DNA from: Candidatus Omnitrophota bacterium
GTDB lineage: Bacteria > Omnitrophota > Omnitrophia > Omnitrophales > Aquincolibacteriaceae
Direction: 5' to 3'
Length of the DNA stretch: 39,171 nt
NCBI GenBank assembly: GCA_016196555.1
Contig: JACPXL010000030.1
Coordinates: 1 to 39,171 of the forward strand
Below the pieces are notes generated by a model, which did no database searches, was not told where the DNA came from, and saw only the letters and a list, made by a program, of their open reading frames with translations. Shown here piece by piece: positions 5,136 through 11,201 of this stretch. The stretch's first letter is position 1, and every line of letters begins with the position of its first letter. The translations under genes and the position numbers were made by a program.

Positions 5136-7559
5136 TTAAAATACCGGTTTTATCCGGCCATCAGATTTTCGGGACGAGTTTTCTTTTTTCCAAAATCCCG
5201 GGATTTGGTTTTCGCATTTTGGACAATGGCCGCCGCTGGCGCTCAATTTATCTTCCAAAATTTGAAATCCAAAACGCGTGATCAGAAGTTCGCGGCAATT
5301 CGGACAATACGTGTTTTCCCAATTCCCCACCATGCCGGGCAGATTGCCGGCATAAATATAGCGCAGTCCGGACTTTTTGCCAATTTCTGCCGCGCGGCGC
5401 AAATCTCCCGCGGTAGTGTTGTCAGGGTCCGTCATTTTGTACTCCTTATGAAATGCCGTCACATGCCAGGGAATATCAGGAGAAATGGCGGCGACAAATT
5501 CCGTGAGGCGGCGGACCTCGTCATCGGAGGAATTAAATCCCGGAATTAAAAGCGTCAAAACCTCCAGCCAAAATTTTCTTTCGTAAAGACCGCGAATGGT
5601 TTGTTTAACATTTTCAAGCGATCCTCCGAGTTCGCGATAATGAGCGTCGTCAAAACTTTTGAGATCAACTTTATAGAGATCCACCCAAGGGCGGATAAAA
5701 TCCAAAACTTCCGGCGTTCCATTTCCGTTGGAAATATACGCCGTTACCAGCCCGGCCTTTTTCGCTTCTTTGAAAATTTCCACCGCCCATTCGCTGGTAA
5801 TTAAAGGCTCGTTATAAGTACTCGCCACAACTTCGCAATTTCTTTCGCGTGCAATCTTCACCAATTCGCGGGGTCCAGTTTTTATCGGAGGTGAAACCGC
5901 AACCGGATCTCTTAAGGCCTGGCTTGTGACCCAATTCTGGCAATTGTGAACCGTAGAAAAATTCGCCAAATAGGTATGGTCCTCTTCGATTTCTAAATTG
6001 TAAACTTTACCGTCGTAATCCTTCTTTTCAATTTTCTGAATAAGCACATAACGAAAATTTTCGTCTTCCCACACCCCTCTTTGTTTTCGGGAAGTTTCAT
6101 ACCACCTGACCAAATAAACCCATGGGTATTGTTTAATATTTCTTCCCAGTAATTTTCTTTCCGTCCGTTGAGCATATCGATAAAATTGCGGCAAATAGCC
6201 AAGTTTTGTAACAAGCCAGGCAACCCCCCAAGCCAGTTCTTCGGATATTGTGCTGACACGAATATGCCGGTCACGGGTAATGTGCCCATCTCCTGCTACA
6301 TAGGCGCTCAGAAAACTTTGTACGATGTTTCGTTCCGCCTTAAAAATGCACTCCGGGACCCGTTTCGCAAACCCTCTTTGGCCGCAAAGCGCCTTAAAAA
6401 ACAGGGCCAAGGAAGTTTTGGAAGTCGACACGGCCAAAGTTGTAGAACGATTCACCAAACAAGCGGTGACTCCAAAAACTTCTTTAATGAGCTTTTGAAC
6501 TCTTTCTGCCTTATCCTCTTCTTTCTTAGAAAAAGAAAAGCTTAAATTGGCCGAATGAACCCTGTCTTTACTTTTCGAAACACAACCTTCAGCGCAATAA
6601 TATCCGAGCAATTCGGCAAGATTTTCGGTAAGAAGAATACTTCCAGGAATACCGGGAGCGTGTTCTTTAGAAAAGCGTATGGTCCCATCTTTTTCGACAA
6701 GAGATGCTTCGTGAATACCCAATTTTTCGAGATTCCATTTTCCACTTTTAATTTTACTTCTGAGATGACGGATATGCGAAGCGGATTTGTTTAAAAGCTT
6801 ACCGATGTCTCTAGAAGATTTTTTATCCCTGGACAACTGCATAATCTGTTCAAGCATTTCGGCGGGAATACTATGTCTTGCGCGATAAGTTGAGGTAAAA
6901 GGTTGAAGAAGATTTCGTGTTGAAAGAACGATTTTTTCGGAAAACTCATAACGTCTTGGAACTGCGAGACAATGATCCGTAGTAAGCTTTTGGGCTTCAA
7001 GATAGATTCCCCGCGAATCCGGATAACGATCAGGCCTTAAACGGACAAGAAGAGGGTGTTCCGGGGTACATTCTACCGGCGGCAAAAAACCGGGTTTTAT
7101 TTTAAAAAGCAGGCCCCGGTAATTTCGTCTGAAATATTTTTTAATTTTTCTCCGTTTTCCGGAATGGGTATAAATTTCTACCGGCATTCGTTTGGAAACA
7201 ATCTCACCGATTGAAAGCATCCCTTTGGAAGTGGAAATTTTTGTTTCGGGCGGAAAACAGTAGCCGCAATGAAAATCACAGCCGAGCATGCCGAAGCTCA
7301 AAACCCTAGCACCGGGCATGGCATGGAAAAACGGTTTTTTCTCGATCGGATCGTCCTGAATCGCACCCACATAGCCGGTGGGAACATATAATTTACCGCC
7401 TTCATTAAACCGTACCCGGCAAACCCCGGCTTTACCTTCAGGAATAGGGCAGCGATGGCCGCAGGCAAAACAGCGAATACGCCCATCCGGCATTTTCTCA
7501 TAGAGAATGCCTTCTTTTGTATTGGCAGCCAGCACTTCCGATAAAGTCTCTTTTGCCAT
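5136..7559 (-). CDS. amrS: AmmeMemoRadiSam-type radical SAM enzyme, intein-containing precursor
   Basis: An 807-residue precursor. Residues 1-100 and 540-807 join to a 368-residue enzyme, the usual size for the AmmeMemoRadiSam (pyruvate formate-lyase-activase-like) family; residues 101-539 are an intein. The N-terminal part has CFACGHRCPIPEGKAGVC and then CDFHCGY. After splicing this becomes C94-X3-C98-X2-C, the [4Fe-4S] radical SAM motif, followed by QNW. The C-terminal part has STYNEPLI, YISNGNGTPE, VDLYKVDLKSFD and a final Cys-rich knuckle pair (CPNC and CPKC, then QIPGFW), all typical of the family. Its partners AMMECR1 and MEMO1 are not in this window, and the substrate is unsettled to my knowledge. 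Strong AGGAGG and TATAAT precede the ATG. Confidence 0.9.
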   Translation of the reverse strand: MAKETLSEVLAANTKEGILYEKMPDGRIRCFACGHRCPIPEGKAGVCRVRFNEGGKLYVPTGYVGAIQDDPIEKKPFFHAMPGARVLSFGMLGCDFHCGYCFPPETKISTSKGMLSIGEIVSKRMPVEIYTHSGKRRKIKKYFRRNYRGLLFKIKPGFLPPVECTPEHPLLVRLRPDRYPDSRGIYLEAQKLTTDHCLAVPRRYEFSEKIVLSTRNLLQPFTSTYRARHSIPAEMLEQIMQLSRDKKSSRDIGKLLNKSASHIRHLRSKIKSGKWNLEKLGIHEASLVEKDGTIRFSKEHAPGIPGSILLTENLAELLGYYCAEGCVSKSKDRVHSANLSFSFSKKEEDKAERVQKLIKEVFGVTACLVNRSTTLAVSTSKTSLALFFKALCGQRGFAKRVPECIFKAERNIVQSFLSAYVAGDGHITRDRHIRVSTISEELAWGVAWLVTKLGYLPQFYRYAQRTERKLLGRNIKQYPWVYLVRWYETSRKQRGVWEDENFRYVLIQKIEKKDYDGKVYNLEIEEDHTYLANFSTVHNCQNWVTSQALRDPVAVSPPIKTGPRELVKIARERNCEVVASTYNEPLITSEWAVEIFKEAKKAGLVTAYISNGNGTPEVLDFIRPWVDLYKVDLKSFDDAHYRELGGSLENVKQTIRGLYERKFWLEVLTLLIPGFNSSDDEVRRLTEFVAAISPDIPWHVTAFHKEYKMTDPDNTTAGDLRRAAEIGKKSGLRYIYAGNLPGMVGNWENTYCPNCRELLITRFGFQILEDKLSASGGHCPKCENQIPGFWKKENSSRKSDGRIKPVF
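5943..7259 (-). other. Intein (Hint splicing domain with LAGLIDADG homing endonuclease)
   Basis: 439 residues, precursor residues 101-539. Block A starts with Cys1 (CFPPETKIST). Block B is VECTPEHPLL with the TxxH motif. Block F is VYNLEIEEDHTY. Block G ends STVHN, followed by extein Cys+1. Two LAGLIDADG-like helices are present: ELLGYYCAEG (acidic residue Glu224 of the intein) and FLSAYVAGDG (Asp324). Both acidic residues are intact, so endonuclease activity is plausible. Between block B and the first LAGLIDADG helix is an extra basic, helix-rich stretch (about 129-175) resembling a helix-turn-helix. All splicing residues (Cys1, block B His, His538-Asn539, Cys+1; last three in precursor numbering) are present, so splicing should be active. 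Confidence 0.95.
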
Positions 7560-7620: not shown

Positions 7621-7656
7621 TTGTGAGGGCTGGGTTTGCAGTATAATCCCGCTGTG
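7621..7656 (+). promoter_or_regulatory. Possible promoter giving a leaderless mRNA
   Basis: TATAAT (7642-7647) lies 6 bases before a GTG start (7654-7656), with TTGTGA (7621-7626) as a weak -35 box at a short 15-base spacing. No Shine-Dalgarno sequence fits between. Transcription would start at about the GTG itself. Confidence 0.45.
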
Positions 7657-9195
7657 ATTACCCTCATTAATCATCAGGGCCTCAAAATTCTCAAAGGCAT
7701 TCAATTACAATCTCCTTCTCCTTCCATTGGCCTGGCTTATATCGGCGCTTATTTAAAGAAAAATGGTTTTAATTATACCGCGGTCGATGCCTGCGGACTT
7801 GCCATGAATCAAATACGGCCTTATGCGAAATTGAAAAATGTTTCTGTTCAAGGGCTCACCAATCTGCAAGTCCTTGAACGAATTCCTTCTGAAACAAAAA
7901 TTTTTGGTTTTACTTGTTTATTCAGCCATTGCTGGCCTCTTGTGCTCGATATGGCCAATGCGATTCGCGCCCAATTTCCCAACGCCCTTTTTATTCTCGG
8001 AGGAGAACACGGCACTGCCATTCCGGAAGCCTGTCTTCGCAGCGGAGCTATTGATGTGGTGGTGATGGGAGAAGGAGAAGAGACCTTTTTGGAACTGGTT
8101 CAAAAAGTAAGCGCAGAACAAAATTGGAAAGATATACGCGGCATTGCTTATTTGGATGATCGGGGTGCGTTTCAAAAAAATCTTCCCCGGAACCGCGTGA
8201 CTGAAATCGATCAATTTCCCTATCCTGATTGGGATTCGTGGCCGCTTGAATCTTATATTCAAAACAGCCAGGTCACGGGCGTGAATTTGGGCCGGGCCAT
8301 GCCGATTCTGGGCAGCCGGGGCTGTCCTTACGCCTGCAGTTTTTGCTCCAATGAAGGAATGTGGACGCGCCGTTATCTGATGAGAGACGCCAAAGCCTTG
8401 CTGAATGAAATGGAATATTTCAAAAATAAATACAATGTTTCCGGCTTTACGTTTATGGATCTGACTTTCATTGTGAACCGTAACAAAGTGAAGACTTTTG
8501 CTCAAGAGCTGATTAGCCGCAATCTCGGTATCACCTATCAAATTCCGGCGGGCACGCGCTGCGAGGCATTTGATGAAGAATTGGCGTTTTTGCTGGACCG
8601 TTCCGGCCTCCGGAATTTTGCTTTCGCACCGGAATCCGGCTCGGAAGAAATTTTGAAGGCCATACGAAAACAAATTAAATTGGACGAATTCATAGGAGCG
8701 GTAAAAGCCGTTTTAAAAACCAGCATGAGCATCGGCTGCTATTTTGTGGTGGGATTTCCCGATGACACGCGGACAACGCTCAAACAAAGCCTGCACATGA
8801 TACGTAAATTGGCGTGGATGGGTGTTCATGATGTGACCGTATCCAAATTCACTCCTTATCCGGGTTCAGCTGATTTTGCAGCACTTGAAAAAGAGGGAAA
8901 AATAACGACCAAAATCGAAGATTTAAGCGCGGTCATTGATTTTTTCTCGGGGAGTAACGCTTCTTACTGCCGCAGCCTTTCATCCCGCCAGCTTTATTTC
9001 TGGATGCTCTGGCTTTACTTAAATTTTTATGTCATTTCATTTTTGCTCCGCCCTTGGCGCGTGATTAAAAATTTTATCGAATTTTTCACCAAGCAAGGTG
9101 TGGAAAATACCCGCTACATGCGTTTTTTTGCTGAGCTTTTTGTAAGACGCCGGAAATGGCTCAAATCCGATCCTTCGCTTTCTCCCGTTGTCTAA
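7654..9195 (+). CDS. B12-binding radical SAM protein
   Basis: About 513 residues from the GTG. An N-terminal cobalamin-binding-like Rossmann domain (roughly residues 1-150, with FILGGEHGTAIPE and VVMGEGEETF) precedes a radical SAM core with the cluster motif CPYACSFC in GSRGCPYACSFCSN. The C-terminal part has aromatic, hydrophobic stretches near residues 440-460 that may touch the membrane. The family includes methylases and cyclases; the substrate cannot be told. The frame stays open to a TTG at 7636, but that codon overlaps the TATAAT box and lacks a Shine-Dalgarno sequence, so I prefer the GTG at 7654. Its stop overlaps the mutY start by 8 bases. The protein would use the B12 imported by the btuB block near 20 kb. 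Confidence 0.82.
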   Translation: MITLINHQGLKILKGIQLQSPSPSIGLAYIGAYLKKNGFNYTAVDACGLAMNQIRPYAKLKNVSVQGLTNLQVLERIPSETKIFGFTCLFSHCWPLVLDMANAIRAQFPNALFILGGEHGTAIPEACLRSGAIDVVVMGEGEETFLELVQKVSAEQNWKDIRGIAYLDDRGAFQKNLPRNRVTEIDQFPYPDWDSWPLESYIQNSQVTGVNLGRAMPILGSRGCPYACSFCSNEGMWTRRYLMRDAKALLNEMEYFKNKYNVSGFTFMDLTFIVNRNKVKTFAQELISRNLGITYQIPAGTRCEAFDEELAFLLDRSGLRNFAFAPESGSEEILKAIRKQIKLDEFIGAVKAVLKTSMSIGCYFVVGFPDDTRTTLKQSLHMIRKLAWMGVHDVTVSKFTPYPGSADFAALEKEGKITTKIEDLSAVIDFFSGSNASYCRSLSSRQLYFWMLWLYLNFYVISFLLRPWRVIKNFIEFFTKQGVENTRYMRFFAELFVRRRKWLKSDPSLSPVV

Positions 9196-10300
9196 TCGAA
9201 TTTTAAATTTTCAACAATTGCTTCTTTCCTGGTACCGCACTCATGCGCGCCGTCTGCCTTGGCGCAGCACTCACGATCCTTACAAAATTTGGATTTCTGA
9301 AATCATGCTGCAACAAACGCAGGTGGACACAGTCATTCCCTATTATCAAAAATGGATTAAACATTTCCCAACGATCGCTTCGCTGGCCGATTCTCCTCAA
9401 GCGGAAGTGATGAAATATTGGGCCGGACTGGGCTATTACCGCCGCGCGCGCATGCTTCATGGAGCGGCAAAAATTCTCGTAAAAAATCACGGCGGCAAAT
9501 TGCCGCAAAGCGCCGAAGAACTTCGCAAACTCCCCGGAATTGGCCGCTACACAGCAGGCGCCATTGCGAGTATTGCCTTCAATCAGAAAACGCCGGTTTT
9601 AGATGGGAATGTCGTTCGCGTCCTGACTCGCCTGCAGGCTTATGCGGAGGATATTACCCAGACAAAAACCGTGGCAAAACTTTGGGAAATTGCCGAATCT
9701 CTGGTGCCGGAAAACAATCCGGGTGATTTTAATCAAGCCATGATGGAACTCGGGGCCACGATTTGTGCTCCTGAAAATCCCAAATGCGATTTGTGTCCTG
9801 TTGCAAGTTTATGTACGGCGCGCAAAATGAAACGCGCGACGGATTTTCCCGTCAAAAAACAAAAAGAGAAGCTTGAGAAAATCAAAACCGCGGCTTTGAT
9901 TTTGCGACGCGGGGCAACTGTCCTTATCAGAAAACAAGCTGATCATGAAAGATGGGGCGGGCTTTGGATGTTTCCTTTTGATAAAGACAGAAAATCTTTG
10001 GCAAAAAAATTCCTTCTCCGTCCTAAAGAGTTGGAGCGCCGCTTCACGCTTTTTCATGGATTTACCAAATACCGTGTGCGTTTGGACGTATTTGAAGCTG
10101 TCATTGCGAGGAAGCCCGACCCTCTACGAGGGCAGTACAAAACACGAGGGCTGACGAAGCAATCTCGCGAGATTGCTTCGCTCACTTCGTTCGCTCGCAA
10201 TGACAGCGCGAACCGATGGATAAAAATTTCCGAGCTTACAACGCTCGCCCTTCCCTCTCCTCATCAAAAAATCGCCAAAGAAATTTTAGAAAATGCCTAA
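9188..10300 (+). CDS. mutY: A/G-specific adenine DNA glycosylase, with a repeat-derived insert
   Basis: Removes adenine mispaired with 8-oxoguanine. Landmarks: ISEIMLQQTQVDTVIPYY with the catalytic Glu, helix-hairpin-helix LPGIGRYTAG, catalytic Asp in LDGNVVRVL, and the iron-sulfur loop C-X6-C-X2-C-X5-C (from TICAPENPKCDLC). The C-terminal 8-oxoG-recognition (Nudix-like) domain contains a 37-codon insert (10097-10207) encoded by a palindromic repeat, between FEA and NRW; the reading frame is kept and no stop arises. Without it the protein would be about 333 residues, a normal MutY length. Starts at TTG overlapping the upstream stop and overlaps ygfZ by 8 bases, so translation is probably coupled. 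The insert falls in a surface loop before the WIKISEL strand, so function may survive. Confidence 0.93.
   Translation: MSNRILNFQQLLLSWYRTHARRLPWRSTHDPYKIWISEIMLQQTQVDTVIPYYQKWIKHFPTIASLADSPQAEVMKYWAGLGYYRRARMLHGAAKILVKNHGGKLPQSAEELRKLPGIGRYTAGAIASIAFNQKTPVLDGNVVRVLTRLQAYAEDITQTKTVAKLWEIAESLVPENNPGDFNQAMMELGATICAPENPKCDLCPVASLCTARKMKRATDFPVKKQKEKLEKIKTAALILRRGATVLIRKQADHERWGGLWMFPFDKDRKSLAKKFLLRPKELERRFTLFHGFTKYRVRLDVFEAVIARKPDPLRGQYKTRGLTKQSREIASLTSFARNDSANRWIKISELTTLALPSPHQKIAKEILENA
10097..10207. repeat. Palindromic repeat inserted in frame within mutY
   Basis: A 111-base element bounded by perfect 14-base inverted ends: GCTGTCATTGCGAG (10097-10110) and CTCGCAATGACAGC (10194-10207). It is two units head to head, joined at CTCGCGAG (around 10164-10171), with a small nested CCCTC-TAC-GAGGG hairpin in the left unit. 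At 37 codons exactly it preserves the mutY frame. The ends match the copy at 1-90. Confidence 0.92.
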
Positions 10301-11201
10301 TATTTTGATTGAAAAGTCTTGGGCTAGGAAAATACAGACCCAGGGATCGGACCGAATCGATTTTCTTCATCGCATTTTGAGCCAGGACATTCGAAACTTA
10401 AAGCCCGGCGAAGGAACGATGAGCGCTTTTCTTTCCGCCGCCGGGAAAATCCTCGCCTTTATGTCTGTCTATATTCTGCCGGATTCCATCATTTTGATCA
10501 CTGAAAACACAAATACTCAAAACGTCGTCGGGATGCTGGATAAATTTCTCATCACGGAAGATGTTCGATTTGAAGAGGCCACGGAAAAATTCGCCTTGAT
10601 TTCTTTGATGGGGCCCGCCGCAGAGTCCTGTTTGAAATCATTTTCAGCTGCTGCTCCAAATCAAGTCCTTGCAGCGATGCGTATTCAATCCGGTTTTGAT
10701 TTCCTTGTAAAAACCGAAAATGCGCCAAAAGCGATTAAATCGCTTTTAGATTTTGGAAAATCTCACAATTTGTCTCAGGCAAATTTAGAGAAATGGGAAA
10801 CTTTTCGTATTGAATCCGGTATTTTACGTTATGGAATTGATATGGATGACAAAATCGCCTTGCCGGAGACAGGCCTTGAAAACATCGCTTCCAGCGAAAC
10901 CAAAGGCTGTTACCCCGGACAAGAAGTCGTGGCCCGAATGAAAACTTATGGGGGCCATACTAAAAAAATGACGGGGCTTATCTTCGATAAAAAATCATTG
11001 CCGGAAGCCGGAGATAAAATTTACTCGCGCGGTGATGAAATTGGCTGGATTACAAGCTGTACGGTTTCGATTAACTTACAAAAAGGAATTGCTTTTGCCT
11101 ATCTTAAAAAAGGATTTTTTGATCCGGGCCTTGAAGTAGAAATTTTTGCGAAGGGTGAAAAAATTCCTGCCGCAACGGCCGCCCTGCCGTTTATTTCTTA
11201 A
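10293..11201 (+). CDS. ygfZ: YgfZ/GcvT-family folate-binding protein
   Basis: A 302-residue protein of the GcvT-like YgfZ family, which binds tetrahydrofolate and supports assembly or repair of some iron-sulfur enzymes. The family signature KGCYPGQEVVARM is present (about residues 206-218), with the conserved Cys. The N-terminal region has RIDFLHRILSQDI, typical of the fold. It follows mutY (an Fe-S enzyme) and a radical SAM gene with overlapping ends, so the three likely form one transcript; an Fe-S maintenance role fits this company (inference). The stop overlaps the converging epimerase gene by 11 bases. Confidence 0.88.
   Translation: MPNILIEKSWARKIQTQGSDRIDFLHRILSQDIRNLKPGEGTMSAFLSAAGKILAFMSVYILPDSIILITENTNTQNVVGMLDKFLITEDVRFEEATEKFALISLMGPAAESCLKSFSAAAPNQVLAAMRIQSGFDFLVKTENAPKAIKSLLDFGKSHNLSQANLEKWETFRIESGILRYGIDMDDKIALPETGLENIASSETKGCYPGQEVVARMKTYGGHTKKMTGLIFDKKSLPEAGDKIYSRGDEIGWITSCTVSINLQKGIAFAYLKKGFFDPGLEVEIFAKGEKIPAATAALPFIS

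Follow-up and report, generated by a model that had tools for sequence, protein, structure and literature searches.

Are inteins only parasites, or can they also be switches? This question is raised by a gene in the window, the 39,171-nucleotide stretch of Candidatus Omnitrophota DNA analysed here, in which the CX3CX2C iron-sulfur motif of an AmrS-type radical SAM enzyme is interrupted immediately before its third cysteine (Cys3). The first-pass annotation had read the interrupting segment as an intein inserted between Tyr100 and this cysteine. It had pointed out that the intein's own Cys1 takes the third-cysteine position in the precursor, and had suggested that cluster binding and splicing might compete. 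The gene and its parts are as follows.

5136–7559, minus strand: AmrS-type precursor gene (AmmeMemoRadiSam radical SAM, TIGR04337), 807 aa including the intein.
7260–7559, minus strand: N-extein, aa 1–100, carrying the cluster cysteines C94 and C98.
7278–7280, minus strand: C94 codon, first Cys of CX3CX2C, intein position -7.
7266–7268, minus strand: C98 codon, cluster Cys2, intein position -3; possible redox-trap partner.
5943–7259, minus strand: intein, aa 101–539, 439 aa, Cys1 to His-Asn, placed by profiles, homologue alignment and Foldseek.
7257–7259, minus strand: intein Cys1 codon (C101), splicing nucleophile, invariant in 16/16 AmrS inteins.
7056–7067, minus strand: intein block B, TPEH (TxxH) motif, aa 165–168.
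6747–6815, minus strand: helix-turn-helix-like segment SSRDIGKLLNKSASHIRHLRSKI, aa 249–271 (weak Pfam HTH_38 match at aa 237–262; predicted helices).
6585–6611, minus strand: first LAGLIDADG motif, LLGYYCAEG, aa 317–325.
6285–6305, minus strand: second LAGLIDADG motif, AYVAGDG, aa 419–425.
5943–6005, minus strand: intein C-terminal splicing region VYNLEIEEDHTYLANFSTVHN, aa 519–539 (intein_Cterm TIGR01443).
5943–5945, minus strand: Asn439 codon, last intein residue.
5940–5942, minus strand: Cys+1 codon, second splicing nucleophile and, after splicing, third cluster ligand (alignment to E. coli PFL-AE).
5136–5942, minus strand: C-extein, 268 aa and stop, beginning with Cys+1 (CQNWVTSQ).

Profile matches above cut-off cover both the splicing and the endonuclease parts of the insert. 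In Pfam, Intein_splicing scores 46.7 bits (cut-off 35.8) and LAGLIDADG_3 scores 53.3 bits in two stretches (cut-off 22.5). The NCBIfam intein_Nterm profile begins exactly at residue 101 (32.3 bits, cut-off 24.5), and intein_Cterm marks an end of VHN followed by C (20.1 bits, cut-off 15.6). The segment thus has the features of a class 1 intein: Cys1 in block A, TxxH in block B, His-Asn followed by Cys, and a homologue with an empty site. Both LAGLIDADG motifs keep their acidic residue (E324 in CAEG, D424 in AGDG), and the helix-turn-helix-like segment probably serves DNA recognition. The NCBIfam Tes intein profile NF045703 resembles the AmrS intein; the NCBIfam search of the reading frame gave no intein variant of AmrS. 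The AlphaFold2 model of the precursor combines an intein fold for the insert with a PFL-AE-like fold for the remainder, and Foldseek matched it to the TliVMA intein (E 8e-24) and to the PFL-activating enzyme 3c8f (E 6e-9).

The host enzyme is recognized with the intein in place (AmmeMemoSam_rS TIGR04337, 256.6 bits, cut-off 220). Deletion of residues 101–539 in silico joins this match into one stretch of 272.9 bits, and Radical_SAM now reaches back across the cysteine motif (60.6 vs 51.3 bits). Since the intein splits the cluster motif, profile searches of such precursors see a broken radical-SAM domain, which is a warning for annotators. In E. coli pyruvate formate-lyase activating enzyme, the cluster is bound by the motif cysteines. 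The third cysteine of spliced AmrS aligns to the third of these, in GCLMRCLYCHN, and the insertion occupies an invariant active-site codon, as had been proposed. AMMECR1 (TIGR04335) and MEMO (TIGR04336) have no match in the 86% complete assembly of the source genome; the name AmrS therefore denotes the protein family here, not a complete system.

The neighbourhood at 7636–11201, divergent from the adjoining AmrS gene, is iron-sulfur-themed. One gene encodes a B12-binding radical-SAM protein with an uninterrupted cluster motif, another an HhH-GPD/NUDIX glycosylase of the MutY type. A YgfZ-like protein of 4Fe-4S assembly is encoded as well, at 64 bits on TIGR03317 (cut-off 49).

A search for the same insertion in AmrS homologues, sampled mostly from metagenome-assembled genomes, found this residue occupied by an intein in 16 AmrS genes from four phyla (Omnitrophota, Acidobacteriota, Chloroflexota and Planctomycetota). 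In eight intein-free relatives the junction aligns without a gap, C-x3-C-x-Y/F being followed directly by CQNW. The boundaries 5943–7259 are exact to the base, and the insertion between Tyr100 and Cys3 is confirmed. The earlier reading would have been called into question by homologues showing the segment to be left unexcised or by an alignment placing it away from the third cysteine; what we found is that segment-free homologues exist and that the insert lies exactly at this cysteine.

The distribution of the intein is patchy. Within the GTDB family and order of the window's source it is present in three other genomes and absent from others whose AmrS is 61–73% identical. A soil Chloroflexi clade contains a 451-aa intein in one member, a 154-aa mini-intein in three and none in one, although the exteins are 93–98% identical in protein and 83–91% in DNA. 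These full, mini and empty alleles strongly indicate, at the sequence level, that a removable element has been gained, has decayed and has been lost, and intein presence changes at least nine times on the extein tree. Altogether five AmrS alleles are mini-inteins of 154–175 aa that lack the endonuclease and retain the splicing residues. As dS is saturated in most pairs, selection was estimated from a single unsaturated mini-mini pair (dN 0.13, dS 0.72, dN/dS ~0.18), according to which splicing appears to be maintained after mobility is lost. Endonuclease decay is also visible in two full-length relatives, with EGGG in L004 and CAGG in L156. A tblastn search of phages and plasmids with the intein returned distant matches only. 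A 372-kb IMG/VR contig carries one phage gene with two inteins, which are distant relatives of the AmrS clan.

The third cysteine is also occupied in other radical-SAM families. We scanned 384 Omnitrophota genomes for a DNA pattern in which CX3CX2C runs into an intein start. The scan gave 10 matches and the reversed control none; the matches comprise 3 AmrS genes, 6 genes of the PA0069/Rv2578c type and 1 chance match. In Chloroflexota and Acidobacteriota the pattern found AmrS and a second, PflX-like family, assigned by reading the sequence. Two Acidobacteriota genomes each carry AmrS and PflX-like Cys3 inteins (L152 and L156 in G653; L153 and L157 in G681), and a Planctomycetales genome with an AmrS intein also has a PA0069-type Cys3 intein.

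A census with intein_Nterm, independent of the cysteine pattern, detected inteins in 96/285 Omnitrophota genomes. We inspected 48 N-junctions, from matches in frames below about 1,110 aa. Radical-SAM hosts account for three of them (NrdG2, at 224 bits against a cut-off of 131; a PA0069-type enzyme; and a B12-binding, HpnJ/BchE-like enzyme), and all three inteins sit at the third cysteine. A second B12-type Cys3 intein was found by homology; both B12-type hosts have CX4CX2C instead of CX3CX2C. Cys3 inteins thus occur in five radical-SAM families: AmrS, PflX-like, NrdG2, B12-binding and PA0069/Rv2578c-type. No intein was found at another cluster cysteine among those inspected, and a control pattern for the Cys2 site gave 19 matches and no radical-SAM intein in 275 genomes. 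One of these matches, a secreted glycosidase-like protein with a C-terminal Hint domain, was rejected as an intein: the domain lies in an unrelated protein and ends in VHN-R, without a C-extein nucleophile.

The inteins of AmrS, PflX-like, NrdG2 and B12-type hosts are mutually best BLAST matches, well above the inteins of other hosts, with between-family E values down to 3e-87; PA0069-type inteins are unrelated to this clan at the BLAST level. The intein tree groups AmrS with PflX-like inteins (support 98/97) and B12-type with NrdG2 inteins (97/96), while the joining of these two pairs is decided neither way (AU p 0.47). The BLAST and tree groupings indicate that at least two intein lineages are found at Cys3 and that one clan has moved from one paralogous enzyme family to another. 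Judged from these comparisons, the AmrS segment is a genuine intein, at a site where inteins have landed repeatedly in radical-SAM enzymes. Another recurrent Omnitrophota intein, at a PGPGxGGH-C site in six loci, belongs to the close non-radical-SAM neighbours of the clan; its hosts are probably UDP-glucose/GDP-mannose-type dehydrogenases.

The insertion brings C94, C98 and C101 together in the precursor, with the intein Cys1 in the third-cysteine position. The first-pass annotation had drawn attention to the resulting CX3CX2C. The reading is true but uninformative: any intein that begins with Cys and precedes the third cysteine yields this spacing automatically. Every Cys3 intein begins with Cys (29/29), but so does every other intein inspected (43/43), and a selected mimicry of the cluster ligand by Cys1 was rejected on this ground. 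A Cys at -3 occurs in 29/29 of the Cys3 inteins vs 2/43 of the others, and 27/29 have cysteines at -7, -3 and 1 together. The host motif dictates the -3 cysteine, whose presence therefore does not show that a redox switch has been selected for. The AlphaFold2 cluster loop has pLDDT < 50 in the precursor and likewise in an intein-free control relative.

We consider it likely, taking the explanation as a whole, that a mobile intein of class 1, equipped with a LAGLIDADG endonuclease, has inserted at the AmrS codon for the third [4Fe-4S] cysteine. Its position at the exact Cys3 site is given by the sequence and the homologues. Splicing would follow the standard route: Cys1 would undergo the N-S acyl shift, Cys+1 would carry out the transesterification and Asn439 would cyclise. 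The intact motifs and empty-site homologues suggest that splicing restores CX3CX2C and the enzyme. Unspliced AmrS is presumably inactive, because the third ligand lies outside its proper chain context. The intein would spread by cutting empty sites and then being copied in. In other radical-SAM families, too, the clan is recurrently found at this cysteine codon, which we attribute to the codons around C-x-x-C being among the most conserved of these genes. With cluster Cys2 invariably at -3, a CxxC pair is present in the precursor and is predicted to form a Cys-3/Cys1 disulfide and so to delay splicing if oxidised, a property that might be a mere by-product of the site.

What maintains the intein at Cys3 can be read in several ways. 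We lean towards a purely selfish element, for which the site would be the most conserved radical-SAM DNA and an imprecise deletion there would kill the enzyme; splicing would be constitutive and fast. The intact endonuclease motifs, the patchy distribution, the decay to mini-inteins, the losses and the spread of one clan across paralogous families are all expected of such an element. Less easily explained is that the unrelated PA0069 inteins also chose the third, and not another, cluster cysteine. The persistence of endonuclease-free mini-inteins under purifying selection points the same way, although loss may simply be hard as well.

A redox checkpoint, in which the Cys-3/Cys1 disulfide forms under oxidation and active enzyme appears only in a reducing cytoplasm, would explain retention at Cys3; we regard it as possible but not probable. 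The redox-trap geometry is present in C98 and C101, and the trap is predicted on the basis of Cys-3 and a precedent: according to PMC3922620 and PMC10663303, a native Cys-3/Cys1 disulfide blocks splicing of the intein in P. abyssi MoaA, another radical-SAM enzyme, under oxidation. In addition, Cys3 hosts at least two lineages and is the sole cluster cysteine at which an insertion leaves a Cys in position -3, and the 275-genome control yielded no Cys2-site intein. On the other hand, presence is patchy and many relatives are empty, the host dictates the -3 cysteine, and within one clan endonuclease specificity accounts for the site equally well. A review also deems the physiological role of conditional splicing unproven (PMC4031507). 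By analogy with MoaA, the trap in the AmrS precursor is a prediction, and may be a by-product of the endonuclease cut site. The stronger proposal, that Cys3 is a convergent regulatory site where unrelated inteins are kept through a redox or cluster-occupancy lock provided by Cys2 at -3, seems to us unlikely. If true, oxygen-labile radical enzymes would be released only in reducing, cluster-building cells.

Competition between splicing and cluster binding is more doubtful still. Here the precursor would bind [4Fe-4S] through C94, C98 and Cys1, and iron-sulfur supply would control activation through occupancy. The three thiols at CX3CX2C spacing, and the same trio in nearly all Cys3 inteins, fit this idea, but the spacing arises by itself, the two B12-type hosts deviate from it with CX4CX2C, and no further intein cysteine is conserved across all AmrS inteins, and extra cluster ligands from the intein were rejected on the same ground. 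That the insert is never excised, being a domain fusion or part of a pseudogene, is very unlikely: no tool result favours it, the frame is open throughout with complete splicing residues, relatives show the exact empty site, and excision alone restores the cysteine motif.

The intein sits where splicing, disulfide formation and iron-sulfur ligation would use the same thiols. With at least five host families and full, mini and empty alleles, the site offers a clean test of whether inteins can act as switches. Inteins of this class and fold have been described before, as have conditional splicing through a -3 disulfide and inteins in MoaA and in enzymes of the Rv2578c type. We found no literature linking an intein to AmmeMemoRadiSam, Rv2578c or tetraether lipid synthase, in a search that covered few subscription papers, and the recurrence at Cys3 across radical-SAM families appears undescribed in the literature searched.

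Among known systems, the archaeal LAGLIDADG inteins TliVMA (7qsu) and PI-PkoII (2cw7) are the best structural and PDB sequence matches. They share the fold and domain order of the AmrS intein, but reside at other sites in V-ATPase subunit A and DNA polymerase, respectively, and are about 17% identical. The mycobacterial SufB intein (PMC8891592) likewise has an Fe-S pathway host and a Cys1 nucleophile, whereas SufB is a cluster assembly protein and the insertion is away from a radical-SAM cluster cysteine. The intein-containing Rv2578c family radical SAM protein (NCBIfam NF038136) is likewise a radical-SAM enzyme interrupted at the third cysteine; its Omnitrophota and Planctomycetota relatives read GCFHACAY, then CLSGDTP...SHN, then CYARPTHEY. 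The AmrS intein differs from it in coming from an unrelated lineage and in its host family. The Pyrococcus abyssi MoaA intein (Callahan et al. 2011, as reviewed in PMC3922620 and PMC10663303) resembles it in having an oxygen-sensitive radical-SAM host and an N-extein Cys -3 able to pair with Cys1. Its host belongs to another family and another domain of life, and its insertion may lie either in CX3CX2C or in the second, CX2C, cluster motif of MoaA. The MoaA disulfide is experimental, while that of AmrS is predicted.
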